Source: Spartobacteria bacterium (GTDB lineage: Bacteria > Verrucomicrobiota > Verrucomicrobiia > Chthoniobacterales > UBA10450). Taken from it: DNA of 64,000 nt. A program made the translations under genes and the position numbers. The DNA is taken from the NCBI GenBank assembly GCA_003167365.1, contig PMTM01000003.1:283645-347644 (forward strand), in the 5' to 3' direction. The notes under the pieces are model-generated. The model saw nothing but the letters and a program-made list of their open reading frames with translations. It was not told the DNA's origin and did no database searches. Of the stretch, positions 203-55,873 are shown in pieces. Positions within the stretch are counted from its first letter, which is position 1, and every line of letters starts with the position of its first letter.

Positions 203-324
203 AACAAGTTTCCTCCATTTGTTGAGAGGCGGACTTGTCGCCGGAGCGAAAATGTCCACGGCTCTCATTCCTCTTTTTGCGAAGAAGTTTTTTCACGCCG
301 TCCGCACACGCGGCGGCACGAATG

Positions 325-525
325 AGGTGGACCGGACAAATATTCTGGCTCCTGGCTTACCGTACTCAATTGAGCACGACCCTTCTTCCCGCCTTCACCG
401 CTCGGCATTTGCCAGGCGATTGGCCCTTGGGAAGTTGTATCCAGTTACAGCAGCGCAACTGCTCCCGATTCACACGGGATTTCTTGCGCCGATCCACGAA
501 TCAAGCTCGCAAAGAACTGCGTTCA
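325..525 (-). promoter_or_regulatory. Cobalamin (B12) riboswitch upstream of the TonB receptor
   Basis: Read on the minus strand, this 424-base non-coding stretch carries the conserved cobalamin aptamer parts in order. The core is ATCCCGTGTGAATCGGGAGC followed directly by AGTTGCGCTGCTGTAAC (about 438-480). About 100 bases later comes a B12-box-like element, AAGCCAGGAGCCAGAA (about 343-358). The TCCCG/CGGGA stem closing over GTGTGAAT is the expected P-stem. From the B12 box to the ATG are about 140 bases, which contain a GC-rich hairpin (about 300-320) that could be the expression platform. Such aptamers usually repress btuB-type receptor genes when adenosylcobalamin is bound. The exact ends are estimated. 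I see no gene elsewhere in 203-626. Confidence 0.82.
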
Positions 526-626
526 GAAATAGCGACTTGCGTTTACCTGTTCAAGGATTTTCTAGTGCGACTTTCGTCGCGCTCTGTACCTCAGGCAGCG
601 ACAAAGTTAAAAAGCGAAGGCGTGGA

Positions 627-3600
627 CTAACCGCCATTCACCGGATTTCGATTTGGGTACGGCGGGATTGAGGGCAGATCGTATCGCTTCGTCTTCAACT
701 CCTCCTGAATTTCCTGGATAGCTCGGTCGAGTTGCTGATCTTCGCCACGAAATTCTTTCGCTGGATCGTTATCAACCACGATGTCAGGATCGACGCCGTG
801 ACCTTCGATTATCCAGCCTTTGCCATCTTTCGAGTACGGCGCGAATTCCGGTTTGAAGAGTTGCCCGCCATCGGTTAGCGGGAGCGGATTGCGAATGCCG
901 ATGACGCCGCCCCAAGTGCGTTTACCGATCAATTTTCCAAGACCCATCGCCTTGAATCGATAGGGAAAAATATCGCCGTCAGAAGCGGAGAACTCGTCGA
1001 TCAGCGTGACCATCGGGCCGGTGAAAGTCTGCGGCGGGTTGGTCCGCGTGGCGCCATTGCGCGCCATCTCAATCATGACAAGCGCGCGCCGGAGCCGTTC
1101 GATGACGAGCGGTGAGACGAAGCCGCCGCCGTTGCCACGGACATCGATGATGAGCGCCTTTTTGCGAATCTGCGGGAAATAGAGCCTGGTGAAGTCGTTC
1201 AAGCCGGCTTGTCCCATGTCGGGAATGTGGACGTAGCCTACTTCTCCGCCGGTTTTCTTGCTGACTTCATCAATGTTCTTTTGCACCCAAGCCTGGTAAT
1301 AGAGCGGCGCTTCGTCCGCCGTGGGCACGACAGTAATGTCACGCGCGCCGTCTTCGCTCGGTTTGGAATTCACGCGCAGGATAACTTGCTTGTCCGCGGT
1401 GCCAATGAGCGCGTCATAGACATTCGGTAATGTGGAAACGGCGGTGCCATTGATGGCCAGAATGTAATCGCCCTCTTTCACGTTTAGACCGATGGCGGTA
1501 AGCGGTGACTTCGTGTGCTTGCTCCAGTTTTCGCCCGGCAAAATCCGGTCGATGCGATAGGCGCGGCTGGCCGGATCGCGAGAGAACTCAGCGCCAAGAA
1601 GGCCAAGCTTGATGCGCGGTGTCTCGGGCCGTTCGCCGCCAGCGACATAAGTGTGGCCGTTATTCAATTCACCAATCAGTTCGCCGATCAGGTATGTGAG
1701 ATCGTTGCGGTGATTCACGAATGGAAGCAGTGCGGCGTATTTGTCGCGCATTGCCTTCCAATCGACGCCGTTCATGGTCGGCGAATAAAAGAAGTCGCGC
1801 ATCTGCCGCCAAGCCTCGAAGTAGATCTGGTTCCACTCGGCATGGCGATCGAGCTGCATGTCGAGGTCCTTCAATTTGAGCAGGTGGTCCTTGGTCTCGA
1901 GCTTGTCTTTGGGCAGATCGATGATGGCGTAATCCTTATCGATCTTGACCTGCATCTTCTTGCCATCGGCGGTGATCTCGTAGCCTTTCACGTCACCAAG
2001 AACGGTCTCTTTCCGATCTTCCAGGCTGTAAACGCAAAGGTGCGCTTTCCGATCGTTGCGGTCGCCGTCTTCCTCGTCGTCGCCGCTATCATCGGCCAAG
2101 GTGCGCCGAAGATAGAAAAGACGATCGTCGACCATCCGGAGATCGCTGTAGTCGCCCGCCACGATCTCGAACCCGACAATGCGATTCTGAATTCCATCAG
2201 TATCGACCTTGACGGTGACCGGTTTCTTCGGTTTCGCGTCTTTGCCGTCGCCTTTTTTATCCTCTTTAGCGTCTGACTTTTTCTCGTTGGCGTTCTTGTC
2301 TTTGTCCTTATCTTTCTCTTTATCCTTCTTGTCCCCTTTTCCGACTTCGTCGCTGCGCGGCGCCAGCGGCGACTCGGTTTCTTTGGCGAGCGTGACAAGA
2401 TAGATGCGCTCCAAATCGCGATAGACATTCGAAAAATCCGTCTGTCCAAAAGTCGGCTTGAAATCGCGGCCCGAAGTGAGCAAAAGATATTTCCCGTCGT
2501 CGCTGAAGACGGGATTGCCGGCCGAATACCAATCATCCGTCACCGCCACCGGTTTTTTATTCGCCGTGGAAAAGAGATAAACTTTGTCCAGTTCGTTCTC
2601 CTCCGGTCGCGCCCAAGTGATCCACTGACTATCGGGCGACCAATTGTAAGCGCGAATCTCTCCGGATTTATCCTGATCGACCGGCGTGATCGCTTTGCTC
2701 GCGACATCGACGTAACGCAACCGCTGCAACCGATCGCTCCAAAGCAGCTTCTTGCTGTCGGGCGACCAGATGGCTTGATAATAATAAGTATCGGCGCCGC
2801 TCGTCAGTTGTTGCGGCTGGCCTTTGCCATCTTGCGCGAGAACATAGAGTTCGTTCTCGCCGGTCGCGTCCGAATTATAAGCGATCCATTTTCCGTCCGG
2901 CGACCAGACTGCATCGCGCTCGTGGACGTTTGAAGTTTTCGTCAAATTGCGCGGTGTGCCGTCCTTCGCAGGCACCGAAAAAAGTTCGCCGCGCGCCACC
3001 GCGATCACTCGTTCGCCATCCGGCGCGGGACTCACCGATTCGATGTGTTTCGATGCATCGACCAGGGCGGAACGTCCGGAAGCGAGGTCTTCTTTGATTT
3101 CGATCGGCACGGGCGTCGCCCTTCCACCGACCAGATCGTAGCGCCAGATGTATCCGGCTTGTTCGAAGACAATCGCGTCCTTGCCGATCGATGGAAACTT
3201 GATGTCGAAATCCTTGAATGTTGTGAGTTGTTTCGTTTCCTTGCTCGTGAGGTCGATCGAGAAAAGATTCATCCGGCCGTCGCGGTCTGAGATGAAATAG
3301 ATGTGATTGTCCGGCCCCCACATCGGGCAAATATCCTGGGCCGGATTATTAGTCAGATTTTCCGTCGTACCGGTCTTGAAATCGAAAATCCAAATGTCAT
3401 CGGCCATGCCGCCGCGATAATGTTTCCAAGTGCGGAACTCCCGGAAGATGCGGTTGAACGCCATTTTCGAATCATCGGGCGAAAACGAAGTGAATCCGCC
3501 GCGCGGCAACGGCAAATGCTGTGGCAACTCCGCGTCCAGGCCGACCGTAAAAAGATCGCCATTGAAGGAGTTGAACGACTTCATCCGGGAGCGGAAAACG

Positions 3601-4025
3601 ACCAGCGGCTTCGTGTTTTCCCAAGTCATCACGATGTTATTCGGGCCCATCCGGTCCGAAATATCGTCACGTCCCAAAGTCGCCGTTGTCGTCAAACGCT
3701 TTGGTGCGCCGCCGTCACCCGGCATCACGTAGACTTCGGTGTTGCCGTCGTATTGCGAAGTGAACGCGAGCTGCGTGCCATCAGCCGAGAAACGCGGAAA
3801 CGAGCTGTAGCCAGGCCCGCTCGTCAGGCGTCGCGCGACGCCACCTTCTTTGCCGACCGTGTAAAGTTCTCCCGCGTAACAAAAAACAATTTGCCGGCCA
3901 TTGGTCGCCGGAAAGCGCAGTAGACGGGTCGTGTCCGGCAACTTCTGAGCAGAAGCGGAAACGATCGGCAAAAGACAGAAGGCAAGCAGTGATAGAAAAA
4001 GCGAAAGTCGTGACAGATTACGCAT
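627..4025 (-). CDS. Tricorn-like S41 family protease with beta-propeller and PDZ domains
   Basis: Large secreted or periplasmic peptidase of about 1132 residues. The start is set at the internal ATG (4025), which begins a clean signal peptide (MRNLSRLSLFLSLLAFCLLP...SASAQ); a longer frame from 4094 would bury it. The first ~600 residues contain repeated PD40/WD40-like blades (SADGTQLAFTS, SPDGKWIAYNS, SPDSKKLLWSD). A very Lys/Asp-rich low-complexity linker (GKGDKKDKEKDKDKDK...) comes next, then a helical C1-like region, a PDZ domain (NVKEGDYILAINGTAV) and the C-terminal S41 serine peptidase core (VRGNGGGFVSPL; DEFSASDGDIFP with the likely nucleophile Ser). The order matches archaeal tricorn and its bacterial homologues, which cut peptides from upstream proteolysis. 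No Shine-Dalgarno motif is obvious. It is transcribed alone toward the TonB gene. Confidence 0.9.
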   Translation of the reverse strand: MRNLSRLSLFLSLLAFCLLPIVSASAQKLPDTTRLLRFPATNGRQIVFCYAGELYTVGKEGGVARRLTSGPGYSSFPRFSADGTQLAFTSQYDGNTEVYVMPGDGGAPKRLTTTATLGRDDISDRMGPNNIVMTWENTKPLVVFRSRMKSFNSFNGDLFTVGLDAELPQHLPLPRGGFTSFSPDDSKMAFNRIFREFRTWKHYRGGMADDIWIFDFKTGTTENLTNNPAQDICPMWGPDNHIYFISDRDGRMNLFSIDLTSKETKQLTTFKDFDIKFPSIGKDAIVFEQAGYIWRYDLVGGRATPVPIEIKEDLASGRSALVDASKHIESVSPAPDGERVIAVARGELFSVPAKDGTPRNLTKTSNVHERDAVWSPDGKWIAYNSDATGENELYVLAQDGKGQPQQLTSGADTYYYQAIWSPDSKKLLWSDRLQRLRYVDVASKAITPVDQDKSGEIRAYNWSPDSQWITWARPEENELDKVYLFSTANKKPVAVTDDWYSAGNPVFSDDGKYLLLTSGRDFKPTFGQTDFSNVYRDLERIYLVTLAKETESPLAPRSDEVGKGDKKDKEKDKDKDKNANEKKSDAKEDKKGDGKDAKPKKPVTVKVDTDGIQNRIVGFEIVAGDYSDLRMVDDRLFYLRRTLADDSGDDEEDGDRNDRKAHLCVYSLEDRKETVLGDVKGYEITADGKKMQVKIDKDYAIIDLPKDKLETKDHLLKLKDLDMQLDRHAEWNQIYFEAWRQMRDFFYSPTMNGVDWKAMRDKYAALLPFVNHRNDLTYLIGELIGELNNGHTYVAGGERPETPRIKLGLLGAEFSRDPASRAYRIDRILPGENWSKHTKSPLTAIGLNVKEGDYILAINGTAVSTLPNVYDALIGTADKQVILRVNSKPSEDGARDITVVPTADEAPLYYQAWVQKNIDEVSKKTGGEVGYVHIPDMGQAGLNDFTRLYFPQIRKKALIIDVRGNGGGFVSPLVIERLRRALVMIEMARNGATRTNPPQTFTGPMVTLIDEFSASDGDIFPYRFKAMGLGKLIGKRTWGGVIGIRNPLPLTDGGQLFKPEFAPYSKDGKGWIIEGHGVDPDIVVDNDPAKEFRGEDQQLDRAIQEIQEELKTKRYDLPSIPPYPNRNPVNGG

Positions 4026-4156
4026 AATGAATGATAAGGAAGATACCAAGCTGCTGTCGAACGGATCGGATGCAACCGTGATTTCATCGGGCAAACGAAT
4101 GCCGCCGCGGCAAACAGCAGCTTGCGCTTAGCCGCTCAAGATTTACTTATCAGTTG

Positions 4157-4223
4157 GTGTAGCTGCGGTCGCCGCGGCGACCGCAGCTTTTATAAGCTGC
4201 GCATGCGGACACGCGCCTCTACA
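4157..4223. repeat. GTAG...CTAC double-hairpin repeat (class 2), with a perfect 28-bp palindrome
   Basis: Lies in the gap between the divergent tricorn and hldD genes. Positions 4161-4188 are a perfect palindrome with half-site AGCTGCGGTCGCCG. A second, weaker hairpin and a CTCTAC end follow. The centre CGCCGCGGCG recurs in other repeats of the window. Confidence 0.75.
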
Positions 4224-4234
4224 TTCATATAAAC

Positions 4235-5185
4235 GTGGCCTTATCCGATCTTACTCCCAACTTAATAATCACCGGCGGCGCCGGATTTATCGGCTCCAAC
4301 CTCACGCTCGCGTTGCAGGAGAAATTTCCGAATGCGCGCTTGACGGTGGTCGATGATTTTCGCTCCGGCGATTTCAAGAACCTCGCCGGTTACCGCGGCG
4401 ATTTTGTCGCCCAGAATCTGTCCACACTTGATTGGCAGGAGCAATTCGGCGACCAAAAGTTCGACGCAATTTTTCATCTCGCATCGATCACCGACACGAC
4501 GATGCACGATCAATTCGCGCAGGTGCACGACAACGTCGAAAGCTTCCGGCGCATTTTAAGATATGCGCAGCCGGCGAAAACCCGGCTTATCTACGCATCA
4601 TCCGCCTCGACTTATGGCGCCTCGACCGAGGCCAGCGTCGAATCAAACGGCGCGGCGCCGGCAAATATTTACGCGTTTTCGAAAACGATCATGGACAACA
4701 TCGCGATGCGCGAAGCGAAAGAGTCGCCGGATTGGATCATCATCGGATTGCGCTACTTCAATGTTTACGGTCCTCGTGAAGCGCACAAAGGCGTGCCCGC
4801 AAGCATGGTTTTTCATTTGTCGAAGCAAATGAAAGCGGGACAACGGCCGCGCATTTTCAAGCAGGGCGAACAGAAGCGCGATTTCGTTTACGTGAAAGAC
4901 ATTGTCGGAGGCAGCATTCTCGCACTCGAAGCTTTGGAAAGTGGAATATACAACTTGGGCTGCGGCCAGGCGCGCTCTTTCAACGAGTTGGTCGATGTCC
5001 TAAACAACTGTCTCGGCACGAAATTCCACCCCGATTACATCGATAATCCTCACGCCCATTATCAAAATTTCACCGAGGCGGACTTGAGCAACGTCCGCGA
5101 CGGCCTTGGTTATCAACCGCGATATCCGCTTGAGGACGGCGTGAAAGATTACATGAAGTGGTTGTATTCGGAGAAAAAAACGTGA
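4235..5185 (+). CDS. hldD: ADP-L-glycero-D-manno-heptose 6-epimerase
   Basis: 316 residues, the normal family length. This extended short-chain dehydrogenase converts ADP-D-glycero-beta-D-manno-heptose to the L-glycero form used in the LPS inner core. The NAD(P)-binding GGAGFIG is at residues 14-20, VVDDFRSG follows the second strand, and the catalytic YxxxK is Y146-A-F-S-K150. RYFNVYGPREAHKG and the FKQGEQKRDFVYVKD segment are hallmarks of HldD rather than generic epimerases. The start is a GTG at 4235; no upstream in-frame ATG gives a better fit. It implies that the cell makes a heptose-containing LPS core. The other heptose genes are not in the window. Confidence 0.92.
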   Translation: MALSDLTPNLIITGGAGFIGSNLTLALQEKFPNARLTVVDDFRSGDFKNLAGYRGDFVAQNLSTLDWQEQFGDQKFDAIFHLASITDTTMHDQFAQVHDNVESFRRILRYAQPAKTRLIYASSASTYGASTEASVESNGAAPANIYAFSKTIMDNIAMREAKESPDWIIIGLRYFNVYGPREAHKGVPASMVFHLSKQMKAGQRPRIFKQGEQKRDFVYVKDIVGGSILALEALESGIYNLGCGQARSFNELVDVLNNCLGTKFHPDYIDNPHAHYQNFTEADLSNVRDGLGYQPRYPLEDGVKDYMKWLYSEKKT

Positions 5186-5208
5186 GGGGCGATCTCGTCA
5201 GCCAGTGT

Positions 5209-5315
5209 TGTCATCCCGAGCGGAGCGAGGGATCTCGCCAAAACTCTTTGATCACTCGAGAAAATAGCGTGACGCAATTTCATCGGTGAGATCCCTCACC
5301 CCGCTCGGGATGACA
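5209..5315. repeat. TGTCATCC/GGATGACA palindromic repeat (class 1), copy A
   Basis: Begins TGTCATCCCGAGCGGAGCGA and ends with the inverted CCCGCTCGGGATGACA. The variable centre contains TTGATCAC. It fills the hldD-DHS gap and ends about 10 bases before the DHS-like ATG. Confidence 0.85.
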
Positions 5316-5326
5316 GATTGAAAACC

Positions 5327-6352
5327 ATGAAACCAAAGAAATCCGATCTCCTTGTCGAAGTTGTCGAGCATATCGACATCAAAGAGCACAACGTCGTTCC
5401 GCTCGTCGAAGCGATGAGCAAGATGGCGTTTTCAGCGCGCGACCTCGGCCGCGCCGCGGAAATTTACGACACCATGCTGCGCGAGGAAGATTGCGCGATT
5501 ATTCTTTGCCTGGCTGGCTCGCTCTTCTCCGCCGGCCTCAAAAATGTGATTGTCGATCTTGTTCGAAACAACATGGTGGACGCGATCGTTTCGACCGGCG
5601 CCATCATCGTCGACCAGGATTTCTTCGAAGCGCTCGGCTTCAAGCATTACAAAGGCGAAATCAACATGGACGACGACGTGTTGCGTCGCCTCGGCATCGA
5701 TCGGATTTACGACACCTACATCGATGAAGATCAGTTGCGCGTTTGCGATACGACCTGCGGTGAGATCGCGGACAAACTCGAGCCGCGCCCCTACTCATCG
5801 CGTGAATTCATCCGCGAAATGGGTCGGCATTTGAGTGATCACGCAGGAAATCGCGACTCGGTTGTGCTCGCCGCGTTTGAAAAAAATGTGCCGATCTTTT
5901 GCCCAGCCTTCAGCGATTGCAGCGCAGGTTTTGGATTGATTCATCATCAATGGCATCATCCCGACAAACATCTCAGCATTGATTCGGCGAAAGATTTTCT
6001 TGAGTTAACGAAAGTCAAAATTGAATCAAAACAGAGCGGTCTGCTCATGATCGGCGGCGGTGTGCCGAAGAATTTTGCGCAAGACACAGTCGTAGCCGGT
6101 GATTATCTCGGCTTCGAAGTCGGCATGCACAAATACGCAGTGCAAATCACCGTGGCGGACGATCGCGACGGCGCGCTCAGTGGATCGACATTAAAGGAAG
6201 CGAATTCCTGGGGAAAAGTCGATCTAGGCGCAGAGCAAATGGTTTACGCCGAGGCGACGCTCGCGCTTCCGCTCATCGCGGGCTACGCCTATCACAAAGG
6301 CGGCTGGAAAAACCGCGCGGCTAGGAATTACGCCGAGTTCTTGGACAAATAG
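5327..6352 (+). CDS. Deoxyhypusine synthase family protein (bacterial)
   Basis: About 341 residues and full length for the deoxyhypusine synthase fold. The key segment SGSTLKEANSWGKV contains the lysine that forms the covalent aminobutyl intermediate in eukaryotic DHS (K297 from this start). The NAD-site STGAIIVDQDF, ..GGVPKNF and FSDCSAGFGL segments are also present. Bacteria lack eIF5A, so this enzyme probably does not make hypusine. Homospermidine or another aminobutyl-transfer product is more likely, but the product cannot be read from sequence. I prefer the ATG at 5327; a TTG three codons upstream (5318) is in frame and right next to repeat copy A. There are no polyamine genes nearby. 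Confidence 0.85.
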   Translation: MKPKKSDLLVEVVEHIDIKEHNVVPLVEAMSKMAFSARDLGRAAEIYDTMLREEDCAIILCLAGSLFSAGLKNVIVDLVRNNMVDAIVSTGAIIVDQDFFEALGFKHYKGEINMDDDVLRRLGIDRIYDTYIDEDQLRVCDTTCGEIADKLEPRPYSSREFIREMGRHLSDHAGNRDSVVLAAFEKNVPIFCPAFSDCSAGFGLIHHQWHHPDKHLSIDSAKDFLELTKVKIESKQSGLLMIGGGVPKNFAQDTVVAGDYLGFEVGMHKYAVQITVADDRDGALSGSTLKEANSWGKVDLGAEQMVYAEATLALPLIAGYAYHKGGWKNRAARNYAEFLDK

Positions 6353-6359
6353 AGTTCGA

Positions 6360-6476
6360 TGTCATCCTGAGCCGCGCAGACGGCGAAGGACCTCACACAA
6401 GCACTTTGCACATTCGTCCGCGAAGTGTGTGACGCATTCTCCGAGTGCGAGATCCCTCACTCCGTTCGGGATGACA
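6360..6476. repeat. TGTCATCC/GGATGACA palindromic repeat (class 1), copy B
   Basis: Left arm TGTCATCCTGAGCCGCGCAG, right arm ending TCCGTTCGGGATGACA. It fills the gap between the convergent DHS-like gene and osmC, where its stem could also act in transcript termination. Confidence 0.85.
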
Positions 6477-6482
6477 GACTAA

Positions 6483-6893
6483 CTAACCTTCCCAGAAAAA
6501 CTTCGTCGGACGATTGATTTCCGATGGAAGACTTTTGTGCACCGGGCAATTGAGCGCGGCTTGCTCGAGTAATTCGCGCTGCGGACAATTTTTCGGCAAC
6601 GGAATATGAACTTCCGACGGCAGCCCAACGATCCGGCGTGGGACATCTTTCGACATCTCTTTCTGCACCGAAACGGTCATGCCGCGCAAATCGAGGCCGT
6701 GCTTCTCCGCGGCCATCGCCATGATCGTGCTCATGCAGGTGCCGAGCGCGGTGGCAACGAGATCGGTCGGCGAAAACGCTTCGCCTTTGCCTTGATTGTC
6801 GGTTGGCGCGTCCGTCCCAATTTTGGATTGCGACGGACCGTGCGTCGCGTCGCAATGCAGGTCGCCAGTGTATTTGATGGAGACGTTGACCAT
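6483..6893 (-). CDS. OsmC/Ohr family thiol peroxidase-like protein
   Basis: 136 residues, typical for OsmC. Two reactive cysteines are in place: C53 in ALGTCMSTIMAMAA and C116 in LNCPVHKSL. These reduce organic hydroperoxides in characterised members. SPTDLVATALG and the C-terminal NCPVHKSL pattern fit the OsmC/YhfA side rather than Ohr proper. The start is the ATG at 6893. The open frame continues upstream to 7133, but that extension is translated from repeat copy C (...ECVILHSVQDDRL...) and is not considered coding. Single gene, convergent with the DHS-like gene. Confidence 0.88.
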   Translation of the reverse strand: MVNVSIKYTGDLHCDATHGPSQSKIGTDAPTDNQGKGEAFSPTDLVATALGTCMSTIMAMAAEKHGLDLRGMTVSVQKEMSKDVPRRIVGLPSEVHIPLPKNCPQRELLEQAALNCPVHKSLPSEINRPTKFFWEG

Positions 6894-6922
6894 GAGATGA
6901 TTATGCGGTGTAATCCGCAGCC

Positions 6923-7030
6923 TGTCATCCTGAACGGAGTGAAGGATCACGCACTCGGAGTGTGGAGCTTTCTTAGGCCAATGGAGATCAAAGAGTTTGT
7001 GTGAGATCCCTCGCTCCGCTCGGCATGACA
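6923..7030. repeat. TGTCATCC/GGATGACA palindromic repeat (class 1), copy C
   Basis: Arms TGTCATCCTGAACGGAGTGA and TCGCTCCGCTCGGCATGACA. It sits 30 bases upstream of the osmC ATG and just past the end of the glycosidase gene, so it lies within the probable osmC leader. Confidence 0.85.
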
Positions 7031-7047
7031 CGAGGAAAACGCTAGAG

Positions 7048-8118
7048 CTAACGCGCCGGAACAATCGGCGATTCTTGAATCTTGTCCGCGTGCTGCGAGA
7101 ATTCCTCGCGAAAGACGCGGGTGAGATTGGCATCGTGCGTAATGATCAGGTCGGAATCGTGTTTTTTGTGATTGTCGTTCTGCCAGCCTTCATTCCACCA
7201 ACAGAAACCGATAATGGCCGGCCATCGATCTGAGAACAATTCGTCCAGAGCCGCTTTGGCCCAATGCGCCGCGTTGACATGCCGGTTGTGCAAATCGCAG
7301 CCGAACTCCGCCACGATGATCGGCTTGCCCGGCGCAATTTTCGTCAGGCGCGGATAAGCTTCGCGCAGTTCAAAAGAAAAGCTCTCTGTTTCATTCTCAG
7401 TTAAAGGAGTTGTTGGTCCATAAGCGCTCAGTGCCACCCAGTCGCAATAGGTGTCGCCCGGAAAATAGTTCTCGAATCGATTCCATTTCGCTTCCGGTTC
7501 GTCGGACCAGTTCGCATGCCAAACCCATTGTAGATTATCCGCGCCTTCCGCGCGCATCACATCAACAATGCGGCGGTAAGCGGCGATGTAGCGCTTGGGG
7601 CCTTCGCCCGCGCCGCCATTCCATTTGCCGTTCCAACTGAACCAGTCTCCGTTCGGTTCGGTTCCCCATTCAATTAGGATGGGCGAGCCAAACTCCTTTG
7701 CTTCGCGCGCCCAGGCACGAAGATCGACGTCGAATTCGCCAGCGATGATTTTTCGAAGCGAAAACCTTTTCTCGACACGATTTTGATCGACATCGGAGCG
7801 AAGCATCAAGCGTAGGTACGGGACTTTCCCAAGATCCCGGATCCATCCGCACATTGCGGCGGGAAATTTTCTCGATTCGAACCAGTTGTTTGCAAAATAA
7901 ACCCACGCAGTTTTTTGGCCGACCGCGTCCTCATAACGCGCAACGTCTGCCGGCGTCACGTCGTGCTCGGTTGGATCGTGCGTATCGGTTCCGACTCCAT
8001 CCCAATAGAAGCCGTGATAAAGTTTTCCCGCCGACGGGACCGCAATACCCTGCAATTCCGCGTGCAAATGCGCGGCGGACAGCAACCCGAGCAAAGATAG
8101 ACATACGAAGTTTTTCAT
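7048..8118 (-). CDS. GH26-like secreted glycoside hydrolase (beta-mannanase family)
   Basis: About 356 residues from the ATG at 8118, which opens a signal peptide (MKNFVCLSLLGLLSAAHLHA). A GTG five codons earlier is possible but less natural. It has a clan GH-A (beta/alpha)8 barrel architecture. E154 in IEWGTEPNGDW is the likely acid/base and E271 in IIVAEFGCD the likely nucleophile. The YFANNWFESRKFP and VPYLRLMLRSD motifs and the WFSWNGKWNGG segment are those of GH26-type mannanase-like proteins (COG4124). It probably acts in the periplasm or outside the cell on beta-mannan or a related polysaccharide. The substrate is inferred from the family only. No sus-type or other glycosidase genes are adjacent. 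Confidence 0.78.
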   Translation of the reverse strand: MKNFVCLSLLGLLSAAHLHAELQGIAVPSAGKLYHGFYWDGVGTDTHDPTEHDVTPADVARYEDAVGQKTAWVYFANNWFESRKFPAAMCGWIRDLGKVPYLRLMLRSDVDQNRVEKRFSLRKIIAGEFDVDLRAWAREAKEFGSPILIEWGTEPNGDWFSWNGKWNGGAGEGPKRYIAAYRRIVDVMRAEGADNLQWVWHANWSDEPEAKWNRFENYFPGDTYCDWVALSAYGPTTPLTENETESFSFELREAYPRLTKIAPGKPIIVAEFGCDLHNRHVNAAHWAKAALDELFSDRWPAIIGFCWWNEGWQNDNHKKHDSDLIITHDANLTRVFREEFSQHADKIQESPIVPAR

Positions 8119-49892: not shown

Positions 49893-50213
49893 ATGGCTGA
49901 AGATAACAAAACACACAGGGCGTCCGGCGCAGCGGACGCACAGGACAAATTCGAGAGCAGCAAGACGCACGCGCGCAAGGCGGCGGAGGATTTGCGATCG
50001 GCAGCGGGCGCGGTCGCGGAAGAATATCGCGGCAAAGCTGAGGAGGCTTGGGGCGACGCGCGCGGCAAGGCCGAGCAAGCTTGGGGCGATGCGCGCGATC
50101 GTGTTCGCACGTTTCAAGACGATGCCGAACAATATGTGCGCGAAAATCCGACCAAAGCGGTCGTGACCGCTCTCGGAATCGGTTTTGTGCTCGGAATGAT
50201 TTTCCGGCGCTAA
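49893..50213 (+). CDS. YqjD/ElaB-like (DUF883) membrane-anchored protein
   Basis: 106 residues. A long charged helix contains an 11-residue tandem repeat (GKAEEAWGDAR / GKAEQAWGDAR), then VRENPTKAVVTALGIGFVLGMIFRR, the C-terminal glycine-rich membrane anchor of the DUF883 family. Homologues tie ribosomes to the inner membrane in stationary phase. First of three genes in the order YqjD-YqjE-YqjK, as in enterobacteria. ATG at 49893 with an AATAGCA leader and CCGGAG about 10 bases upstream. The 49742-49892 gap shows nothing else. Confidence 0.85.
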   Translation: MAEDNKTHRASGAADAQDKFESSKTHARKAAEDLRSAAGAVAEEYRGKAEEAWGDARGKAEQAWGDARDRVRTFQDDAEQYVRENPTKAVVTALGIGFVLGMIFRR

Positions 50214-52159: not shown

Positions 52160-52206
52160 CCGCGGATTACCCGCCACGGCGGGCAGGCGGCGGATTTACA
52201 CGGATG
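52157..52206. repeat. CCGCGGATTAC...ACACGGAT repeat (class 3), left of the GxxExxY gene
   Basis: TAACCGCGGATTACCCGCCA at the left, a nested CCCGCCACGGCGGG palindrome, then GGCGGATTTACACGGATGAC. Supplies the upstream pilT stop (TAA) and the ATG of the GxxExxY gene. Confidence 0.85.
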
Positions 52207-52617
52207 ACTAAAAAGATAATTCATGAAGAGCTGAGCGGTATGATCATCGGAGTCGCGATGGAGGTCTTGAACGAGCTCAAGCCTGGCCTAGATGAGAAGC
52301 TTTACGAGCGCGCCATGGTCATCGAATTGCGCCGGCGTGGCCACATTGTGGAGGTGCAACGTTCGTTTCCTGTTTTCTATCACGCCGAACTGATTGGGCA
52401 CTTGGCGCCCGACTTGATTGTGGACGAAACCATCGTCGTCGATCCGAAAGTGGTCTCCGCATTCAACGAAGCGCACATCGCGCAAATGGTCGGCTATCTC
52501 ACCATCAGTGGACTCGAACTGGCCTTGTTATTGAATTTCAAAAGCGCGCGACTCGATTGTAAGCGCGTAGTCCGTCAGCACAAAACCCAATCTGCTCCTC
52601 CAGATCTGCATGCCTAG
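52204..52617 (+). CDS. GxxExxY protein (PD-(D/E)xK nuclease-like)
   Basis: 137 residues. The diagnostic G28-L-D-E31-K-L-Y34 follows HEELSGMIIGVAMEVLNELKP. A PD-(D/E)xK-type core is visible: P-D70 in HLAPDLIVDETIVVD, then D80-P-K82 (most members have E-x-K), and NEAHIAQMVGYLTISGLELALLLNF. Small nuclease-like family of unknown role, frequent in Verrucomicrobiota and Planctomycetes. The gene is framed by inverted class 3 repeats that contain its own ATG and the previous stop. It interrupts the spacing between two pilT copies, so it looks like an inserted unit. Confidence 0.88.
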   Translation: MTKKIIHEELSGMIIGVAMEVLNELKPGLDEKLYERAMVIELRRRGHIVEVQRSFPVFYHAELIGHLAPDLIVDETIVVDPKVVSAFNEAHIAQMVGYLTISGLELALLLNFKSARLDCKRVVRQHKTQSAPPDLHA

Positions 52618-53785: not shown

Positions 53786-53914
53786 GCCAATCGGCCCCCG
53801 GACGTCGCGTTAAGCATGAAAGTCGTGCACAGATGGACAAAAATCGTTTTTTTGGCTTTCGGACTAAGAAAAGACTGTTCTTAGCTTTGATCCGGCGCCA
53901 ACGGTGTGCACCTA

Positions 53915-54532
53915 TTAGAACGAGGCCCGCAATTTTATGGCCAAAGCCATAGTTGCCGAGCGCGCACGTTGGAGGCTCGGTGATTGCTGGGCCGCTTTTT
54001 CAATGTCCCAGCAGGAAATTATGAACTGGTTCAGCAAGCTGTTATATTCCGGTCCGATTGTCGCTCGTGACCCAGGTCGCGGCAACAAACCAGTTCTAAT
54101 TTTCCGCGGTGACCTTTGAGCTAGTTTCAGAAGTTCGCTCTTCGCATCGACTAAGCTGTCCGGATCGGCTGGAATATGAATTACTTCTATTTGTAGAAAT
54201 TCAGCCAGGGAACAGCTGTCAGCTAAGAGCCACGATTCCACTTCTCGAACCGCGATGCGAAAAAGGAAATTAGGATGCGGTTGCTCGCTAATCCAGTTTC
54301 GAAGCAACTCAGAGGGGCAGTGCACTCGGTCAAGATCGGTCAACATTAAGACCGGATAACCGAAGGACGCCATCTTCTGGTAGTTTTTTACCTTTTTTCG
54401 TAGTGTTCCGTAACCGTGTCCGTTTTCCTCGCGATGGATCAAAAGTGGAGATGCCTCGGCGATAAGGCGCCGTCCAACTGCAAGACCGGGTAAATCCTCT
54501 GCCGCCAGATAGACAGTAGGAAGGAGGCTCAC
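53915..54532 (-). CDS. TOPRIM-like (DUF4276-type) protein, partner of the AAA ATPase
   Basis: 205 residues, GTG start overlapping the ATPase stop (GTGA). The layout fits a small TOPRIM-like nuclease: an early acidic residue (E12 in VYLAAEDLPGLA), DxD in VLMLTDLDRVHCP (D66, D68) and a conserved REVESWLLADSCSLAEFL block (E97, E99), as in DUF4276 and OLD/PARIS AriB-type partners. The remaining segment (TGLLPRPGSRATIGPEYNSLLNQF) is typical of such subunits. Together with the ATPase it looks like a two-gene defence or conflict system. Family assignment is by motif, not by search. Confidence 0.7.
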   Translation of the reverse strand: MSLLPTVYLAAEDLPGLAVGRRLIAEASPLLIHREENGHGYGTLRKKVKNYQKMASFGYPVLMLTDLDRVHCPSELLRNWISEQPHPNFLFRIAVREVESWLLADSCSLAEFLQIEVIHIPADPDSLVDAKSELLKLAQRSPRKIRTGLLPRPGSRATIGPEYNSLLNQFIISCWDIEKAAQQSPSLQRARSATMALAIKLRASF

Positions 54533-55704
54533 AACAGACTGAGCTGTTCAAGTTTATCTACGTTTTCAGGCTTTGTTGCTGGCAGAAGTACTTGGCCAAC
54601 GGGCAGTCCGCTCTGCAGCATGATCTGCTCCTGTTTACTTGGAGCAGCGACTCCAGTTCCTTCCTTTGAAGGCTCAAAACGAACCACCGCTTCAGACCCG
54701 ATCGCCGAGTCCGACAGCAATGCTTCACTGTGAGTCGTGACTATCACCTGACGCGGACTTTTCGCTTGTTTCTGAATTTTTCGTATCAGGGCAGGGAGCT
54801 TAGAAACGATTTCTTCATTGAGTGACAGCTCGGGCTCTTCGAGCAGAAGTAAAGAATTGCCATCCATTAAAGCCCAGAGCAGTCCAATTAGGCGAAGGGT
54901 TCCGTCGGAGAATTGATGCTCCCGTTGCCAGGTTCCGGCGGGACGCCAGTGGGCAAAGTTTGCCTCTATGTGTGGCTGACCAGTGACAGCATCACGCGTG
55001 AATCTAAGCTCCTTAAACTGAGGAACAACGCTCTCTAGCGCAGCTTGGATTCGACGAAGTCGCGCATTACGCGTTTGTTCTCCCCCAGCGGCAATCCGCT
55101 GAAGCAGCCCTTGCCCAAAAGGATCTTGATCAATGACCTTACCGCCGATCACATCGCCAAATTTCAACAGTTGCGGCACAAGGTGCAGATAGGTTATCTC
55201 GCTAAAAAAATGCGCAAGTTCACGAAAATTCACGTTCGCATTAACCTGTTCAAGAAAAGTCTGTGTTAGACGCTCAGGGTCTTCTTCATCTGCCGGTTCC
55301 GGACGGTCGAGTAATAATTTTTCTCCGCGAAATACTTTTTCCTGGGTAATTACAACTCGATTATTTGCTTTGCCCTCTCCTTTGAAGCCAAGTCGGTAGA
55401 TCCATAGAGGCTCATCCGGTTTATCTTCAACCGCCATCTCAATAAGCACCTCAGTGTCTGTACGAGCATTAACGCAACGCAGCTTGGAAAGACCGCCCCG
55501 ATCACCTACGGCCATTTGGAGACCCCCTCCCGCAGGTTTTACTCCGGCGGGGCGAGCCACAGCGCGAAGAAAGCGGAACGCGTCCAAAAAATTGGACTTT
55601 CCCGACGCATTGGGGCCGATCACAAAGACTTGATCCGCAAGCGCGATGGACTCGATAAACTGGAAGTTCATCCAGTTCTTGAGGGTTACGCTTCTTATTC
55701 TCAT
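54529..55704 (-). CDS. AAA family (AAA_21/OLD-like) ATPase
   Basis: 391 residues from the ATG at 55704 (MRIRSVTLKNWMNFQFIESI); a GTG at 55785 would add 27 residues with no homology features. SMC-like ABC ATPase: Walker A VIGPNASGKSNFLDAFRFL (K36), signature-type HQFSDGTLRLIGLLWALMDG, Walker B SLLLLEEPELSLNEEIVSKLP and switch VIVTTHSEALLSDS. The centre is an insert with helices instead of a full coiled coil. Such ATPases pair with TOPRIM nucleases in OLD, Gabija and PARIS-like defence. The local DNA looks more AT-rich than the flanks (by eye), in line with horizontal gain. Confidence 0.85.
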   Translation of the reverse strand: MRIRSVTLKNWMNFQFIESIALADQVFVIGPNASGKSNFLDAFRFLRAVARPAGVKPAGGGLQMAVGDRGGLSKLRCVNARTDTEVLIEMAVEDKPDEPLWIYRLGFKGEGKANNRVVITQEKVFRGEKLLLDRPEPADEEDPERLTQTFLEQVNANVNFRELAHFFSEITYLHLVPQLLKFGDVIGGKVIDQDPFGQGLLQRIAAGGEQTRNARLRRIQAALESVVPQFKELRFTRDAVTGQPHIEANFAHWRPAGTWQREHQFSDGTLRLIGLLWALMDGNSLLLLEEPELSLNEEIVSKLPALIRKIQKQAKSPRQVIVTTHSEALLSDSAIGSEAVVRFEPSKEGTGVAAPSKQEQIMLQSGLPVGQVLLPATKPENVDKLEQLSLL

Positions 55705-55873
55705 AAATGGTTGTCTATGATAGCGAGCTCTAGTCAATCCGTCGCGAATATTCCTCTTTTTCGTGAACCAGTCGTCGGAGCTCACATTGACAACGAAAAA
55801 CGCGGGTGATAATGTCGCCGCACTTCGACGGAATTTCGTTTGAAGGCAGTGTAACGCGGGTCATTACAAAGAT
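55705..55873. other. Divergent intergenic region between the ATPase and the HNH gene
   Basis: 169 bases between divergent starts; must hold both promoters. I see no clear operator or repeat. If the ATPase used its GTG start at 55785 the gap would shrink to 88 bases. Confidence 0.4.

Follow-up and report, generated by a model that had tools for sequence, protein, structure and literature searches.

Apparently intact genes of the candidate defence system HEC-01 in a Spartobacteria bacterium

HEC-01, the Hma-embedded candidate 01 of PADLOC, consists of two halves, HEC-01A and HEC-01B. The HECs were discovered through 'guilt-by-embedding' (PMC12988326; PMC10855318) and several of them, HEC-06 being the one named, have demonstrated antiviral activity (PMC12988326). 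In the literature that we searched we found no study testing HEC-01 itself and no published HEC-01 mechanism. In PARIS, a hexamer of AriA sequesters AriB, and phage triggers such as Ocr free AriB, which then cuts tRNA (PMC12409363). Pairs of an OLD-ABC protein and a TOPRIM protein are recurrent back-up effectors in BREX-type and related loci (PMC12839542).

Family and fold of the two proteins

The stretch of DNA analysed here, referred to as the window, comprises 64,000 nucleotides of contig PMTM01000003.1. The sequence-only reading had described, at 53915-55704 on its minus strand, an ATPase gene translationally coupled to the gene of a small TOPRIM-like protein; both open reading frames are found there with the claimed motifs, arranged in tandem with the ATPase gene first and the small-protein gene second, and the coupling by GTGA is likewise confirmed. 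The features are as follows.

54529..55704, minus strand: HEC-01A, OLD/SMC-type ABC ATPase, 391 aa, ATG start (PADLOC PDLC04180, Pfam AAA_21); Walker A G30-S37 (K36), signature S266-D267-G268-T269, Walker B L285-E290, switch H325
53915..54532, minus strand: HEC-01B, DUF4276/TOPRIM-type putative nuclease, 205 aa, GTG start (PADLOC PDLC04194, DUF4276)
54529..54532, minus strand: GTGA overlap of 4 nt, joining the ATPase stop TGA and the small-protein start GTG; translational coupling
53786..55784: acquired segment, approximate, spanning the interval between the resident pilT-like gene and the HNH promoter-like block, delimited by the order kept in relatives

In the ATPase the motifs read GPNASGKS (Walker A), SDGT (signature), LLLLEEPELSL (Walker B) and TTHS (switch), and the small protein carries E12, D66xD68 and REVESW. 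Several of the homologous pairs described below overlap in the same way, or almost do.

Searching with PADLOC, as had been suggested, matched the two proteins to the two halves of HEC-01 over nearly their full length: the ATPase to HEC-01A (PDLC04180) with an E-value of 4.5e-141 over residues 1-386 of 391, and the small protein to HEC-01B (PDLC04194) with an E-value of 8.3e-55 over residues 6-197 of 205. In Pfam the ATPase matches AAA_21 (E 2.1e-29), and the DUF4276 relationship on which the sequence-only reading had hung is present in the small protein though weak (E 1e-5, slightly below the gathering score); no NCBIfam profile scored above its cut-off for the pair. The agreement between the pair and its families is far beyond chance. 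Judged by these profiles, the pair is an apparently intact and straightforward member of the catalogued candidate system HEC-01, not an undescribed system, and the proposal of a new short variant of OLD, Gabija or PARIS is not upheld.

The pair belongs to neither PARIS nor Gabija nor OLD. The AriA profile PDLC02980 matches the ATPase with an E-value of 8.6e-28 over the stretch that the general AAA_21 model also covers, HEC-01A being far stronger, and the PADLOC profiles of AbiLi (8.5e-21) and mad3 (9.9e-21) match it as well. Among proteins of solved structure the closest relative of the ATPase profile is GajA, followed by PtuA and AriA, with Rad50 and OLD; the AriA PDB chains are matched at 2e-6. 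As the small protein matched neither AriB (PADLOC, E up to 1) nor DUF4435 (Pfam), its earlier description as 'AriB-type' is valid for the logic, that of a separate TOPRIM effector, and not for the family. A search of solved-structure sequences with the small protein alone, or with a profile of eight members, returned nothing significant.

The structure model of the small protein (pLDDT 70) alternates strands and helices, the strand-helix order occurring four times, whereas that of the ATPase (pLDDT 41) is unusable. In VIA the top three matches of the small-protein model are the TOPRIM domains of OLD 6nk8, 6njv and 6njx, with Z of 7.0, 6.2 and 5.9, rmsd of 4.4-4.9 and 162-163 aligned residues, the next rows having a Z of 4.7; the tenth match is the retron Eco2, which is TOPRIM-bearing (PMC12405507). 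Foldseek found nothing significant in the PDB, the best E-value being 0.19, and AriB was absent among the matches listed. With E12 and D66xD68, the TOPRIM hallmarks, invariant in the homologues and a model of pLDDT 70 reaching a Z of at most 7, the data support a TOPRIM fold for the small protein at modest structural scores.

These comparisons bear on the possibility that the pair is an OLD/Gabija-like DNA nuclease split in two chains, in which the ATPase would recruit or license the TOPRIM nuclease to cut phage DNA directly, with no toxin release or abortive infection. That GajA outranks AriA among proteins of known structure related to the ATPase profile, that the small-protein model is nearest to OLD TOPRIM domains and that OLD and GajA act on DNA (PMC10568477) all speak for it. 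The structural hint toward OLD is nevertheless weak, since AriB may be equally near in fold and was left unranked by Foldseek, and the pair resembles PARIS in encoding its nuclease as a small protein of its own, and lacks a helicase partner. We hold a split DNA nuclease to be a possible but doubtful reading.

A rare pair inserted between resident genes

Seven homologue loci were found in the genome collection, all of them in Verrucomicrobiota. Strong matches occur in 7 of the 387 genomes of the phylum sample, the own genome included, and in 3 of 288 of a further sample, so that the pair is rare and patchy in the phylum; at the strong Verrucomicrobiota loci both genes are adjacent and in the same order. 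Residue conservation was followed in 8 divergent homologues spanning 33-80% identity over both proteins. E12, D66, D68, R96, E97 and E99 of the small protein are invariant down to 33% identity, and in the ATPase the positions that do not vary in distant homologues are K36, the signature SDGT, the segment EEPELSL and H325. The ATPase is more conserved than the nuclease throughout the set, as in locus L022, in which the two are 80% and 59% identical to those of the window; the effector evolves faster.

Among 58 genomes, namely the own and 57 others from its family or order, the small protein is present in the own genome only, and the conservation in all relatives that would mark a housekeeping locus is not seen. 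The adjacent HNH gene is found in 52 of the 58, and the order pilT-like gene, HNH gene, nuoN persists without the pair in relatives whose contigs reach far enough. In relatives without the pair the gap between pilT and the HNH gene is often only about 100-190 bases; in some (e.g. L009 and L010) pilT is more distant and other sequence intervenes. A promoter-like block, TTGACA...TGATAAT, at about 55785-55815 upstream of the HNH gene is common to the window and many relatives. As both this gene order and the shared block upstream of the HNH gene exist without the pair, we conclude that the pair was acquired horizontally, as an insertion of roughly 2 kb that now separates resident genes. A search of the segment for clear ends of a mobile element and for clear terminal repeats found neither, and promoter and terminator scans of it remained at chance level.

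The impression that this DNA is richer in A and T than its flanks is corroborated by composition. The GC content of both genes is 0.506 and that of the two kilobase windows covering the pair 0.508 and 0.503, all others ranging from 0.516 to 0.590, and the GC3 values of the two genes (0.47 and 0.51) are the lowest of 45 open reading frames chosen mechanically from the window (mean 0.63, SD 0.06). A resident repair or housekeeping locus, consisting of a RecF/SMC-like ATPase and a processing nuclease, would account for the RecF/SMC-type motifs; yet the pair is missing in 57 relatives that retain its neighbours, is rare and patchy in the phylum and is atypical in GC3, and this explanation, already contradicted, is scarcely credible.

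The surroundings agree in part with what had been read from the sequence. The HNH gene does adjoin the pair, and we considered it as a third component; it was rejected because it is a resident gene, its 203-aa product being conserved. The pair had also been placed between repeat-rich loci, but the whole window holds 7 weak tandem arrays, the nearest at 50028 and 62296. In the own genome the pair stands alone between pilT and nuo genes, outside any defence island. At 52204-52617 the window carries a PDDEXK_3 gene (GxxExxY-type; PF13366, 4.3e-32) flanked by two pilT-like ATPase genes, and a relative of it also lies upstream of pilT in L016.

Restriction-linked relatives and a proposed mechanism

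In two relatives, CSMAG_1313 (L025, 1886-9386) and a member of Opitutales (L027, 1924-9393), the pair lies between the mod and res (ResIII) genes of a type III restriction-modification system, all in the same direction, and the Mod protein next to it matches PDLC03632 at 1.4e-172 and 5.8e-168, respectively. Elsewhere the pair adjoins a type IIG enzyme and a DUF3800 gene (L043), precedes a type III-like methylase and restriction pieces together with PDC-S05 (L047), or adjoins PDC-S11 and PDC-S22 (L045), and at three loci (L022, L023 and L024) no defence neighbour was evident in the DNA examined. Such loci are few and were counted without a null, and they represent a pattern, not a statistic.

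The two-gene antiphage reading made from the sequence is supported by the profile matches, the conserved residues, the patchy distribution and the defence-gene neighbourhoods in relatives. As homologous pairs combine invariant catalytic residues with restriction and other defence neighbours, we consider it likely that the pair is an antiphage HEC-01 module. It is conceivable that two coupled genes with a nuclease-like effector, in a lone chromosomal insertion, form instead a toxin-antitoxin-like or element-maintenance module of a benefit other than antiphage, and the Pfam label of AAA_21 is indeed 'putative AbiEii toxin'. Restriction and other defence genes, however, are neighbours of homologues, two of which lie inside type III restriction-modification operons, and relatives of the small protein were found neither in 72,556 plasmid records nor in 50,697 phage records, nor in viral contigs; we regard a toxin-antitoxin-like role as quite improbable.

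For the antiphage module, a PARIS-like guard-and-release nuclease is probably the best reading because of the PARIS-like architecture, the coupled genes and the restriction-linked relatives, with less certainty for the step of release and for tRNA as the target than for the antiphage module itself. We propose that the ABC-type ATPase HEC-01A would act as the sensor, assembling with the small TOPRIM nuclease HEC-01B and holding it inactive. Binding or perturbation of the ATPase by a phage product, plausibly one that serves to counter restriction, may then free or activate the nuclease. This metal-dependent enzyme (E12, D66/D68) would cleave nucleic acid, either host tRNA, as AriB does, or DNA, as in OLD and Gabija, and this cleavage would halt the growth of the infected cell. 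Between tRNA and DNA as the target we see the chances as about even. The compact pair with its clear catalytic residues makes the hypothesis of a sensor that releases a nuclease directly testable and, if true, it would extend the logic of PARIS to a second TOPRIM-type family, DUF4276.

The embedding of the pair in type III restriction-modification systems of relatives is the freshest point of this analysis, and the arrangement mod-[HEC-01AB]-res in two of them suggests a class of triggers, the inhibitors of type III restriction. HEC-01 might in this branch guard type III restriction enzymes by sensing phage anti-restriction proteins directed against them, the lone copy of the window guarding in trans an unlinked type III system with a PDLC03632-type Mod, a speculative proposal that we deem unlikely. 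The own genome does hold type I and type III restriction-modification loci unlinked to the pair, including a Mod of the PDLC03632 type. One of its loci (L058, C1:664000-676000, at 1412-7355) is a type I system with methylase, specificity and restriction subunits. In another (L059, C1:483000-490000, at 287-6467) the gene of a 619-aa OLD/AriA-like ATPase lies immediately ahead of a type III mod-res pair and overlaps it; this is another association of an ABC ATPase with type III restriction-modification, in the same genome and unlinked to the window.

Comparison with known systems

The locus resembles HEC-01 in that both proteins match near full length and the genes are adjacent and coupled, and a subset of relatives inside or beside restriction systems bears the 'guilt-by-embedding' signature. 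It differs in that the window copy lies outside Hma or any other defence locus and that the embedding host in the two Verrucomicrobiota relatives is a type III restriction-modification system, not Hma. With PARIS it shares an ABC ATPase sensor and a separate TOPRIM effector encoded by two genes, AriA as one of the solved relatives of its ATPase profile and, from the literature on PARIS, the linkage to restriction and BREX loci; yet the effector is DUF4276/HEC-01B, not AriB/DUF4435, and the ATPase, at 391 aa, is shorter than the AriA chains in the PDB, at 464 aa.

AbiL and MADS are related through the matches of the ATPase to the AbiLi and mad3 profiles, with scores far below that of HEC-01A, and no other MADS component lies beside the pair. 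Gabija and OLD share with it the ATPase superfamily and a TOPRIM-type nuclease and provide its nearest PDB matches. Unlike GajA, however, which holds both in one protein, the window encodes ATPase and TOPRIM on separate open reading frames, and its locus has no GajB helicase, the neighbours being pilT-like and HNH genes; OLD of class 1 is similarly a single ABC ATPase-TOPRIM protein, whereas the window devotes two open reading frames to the same two functions.
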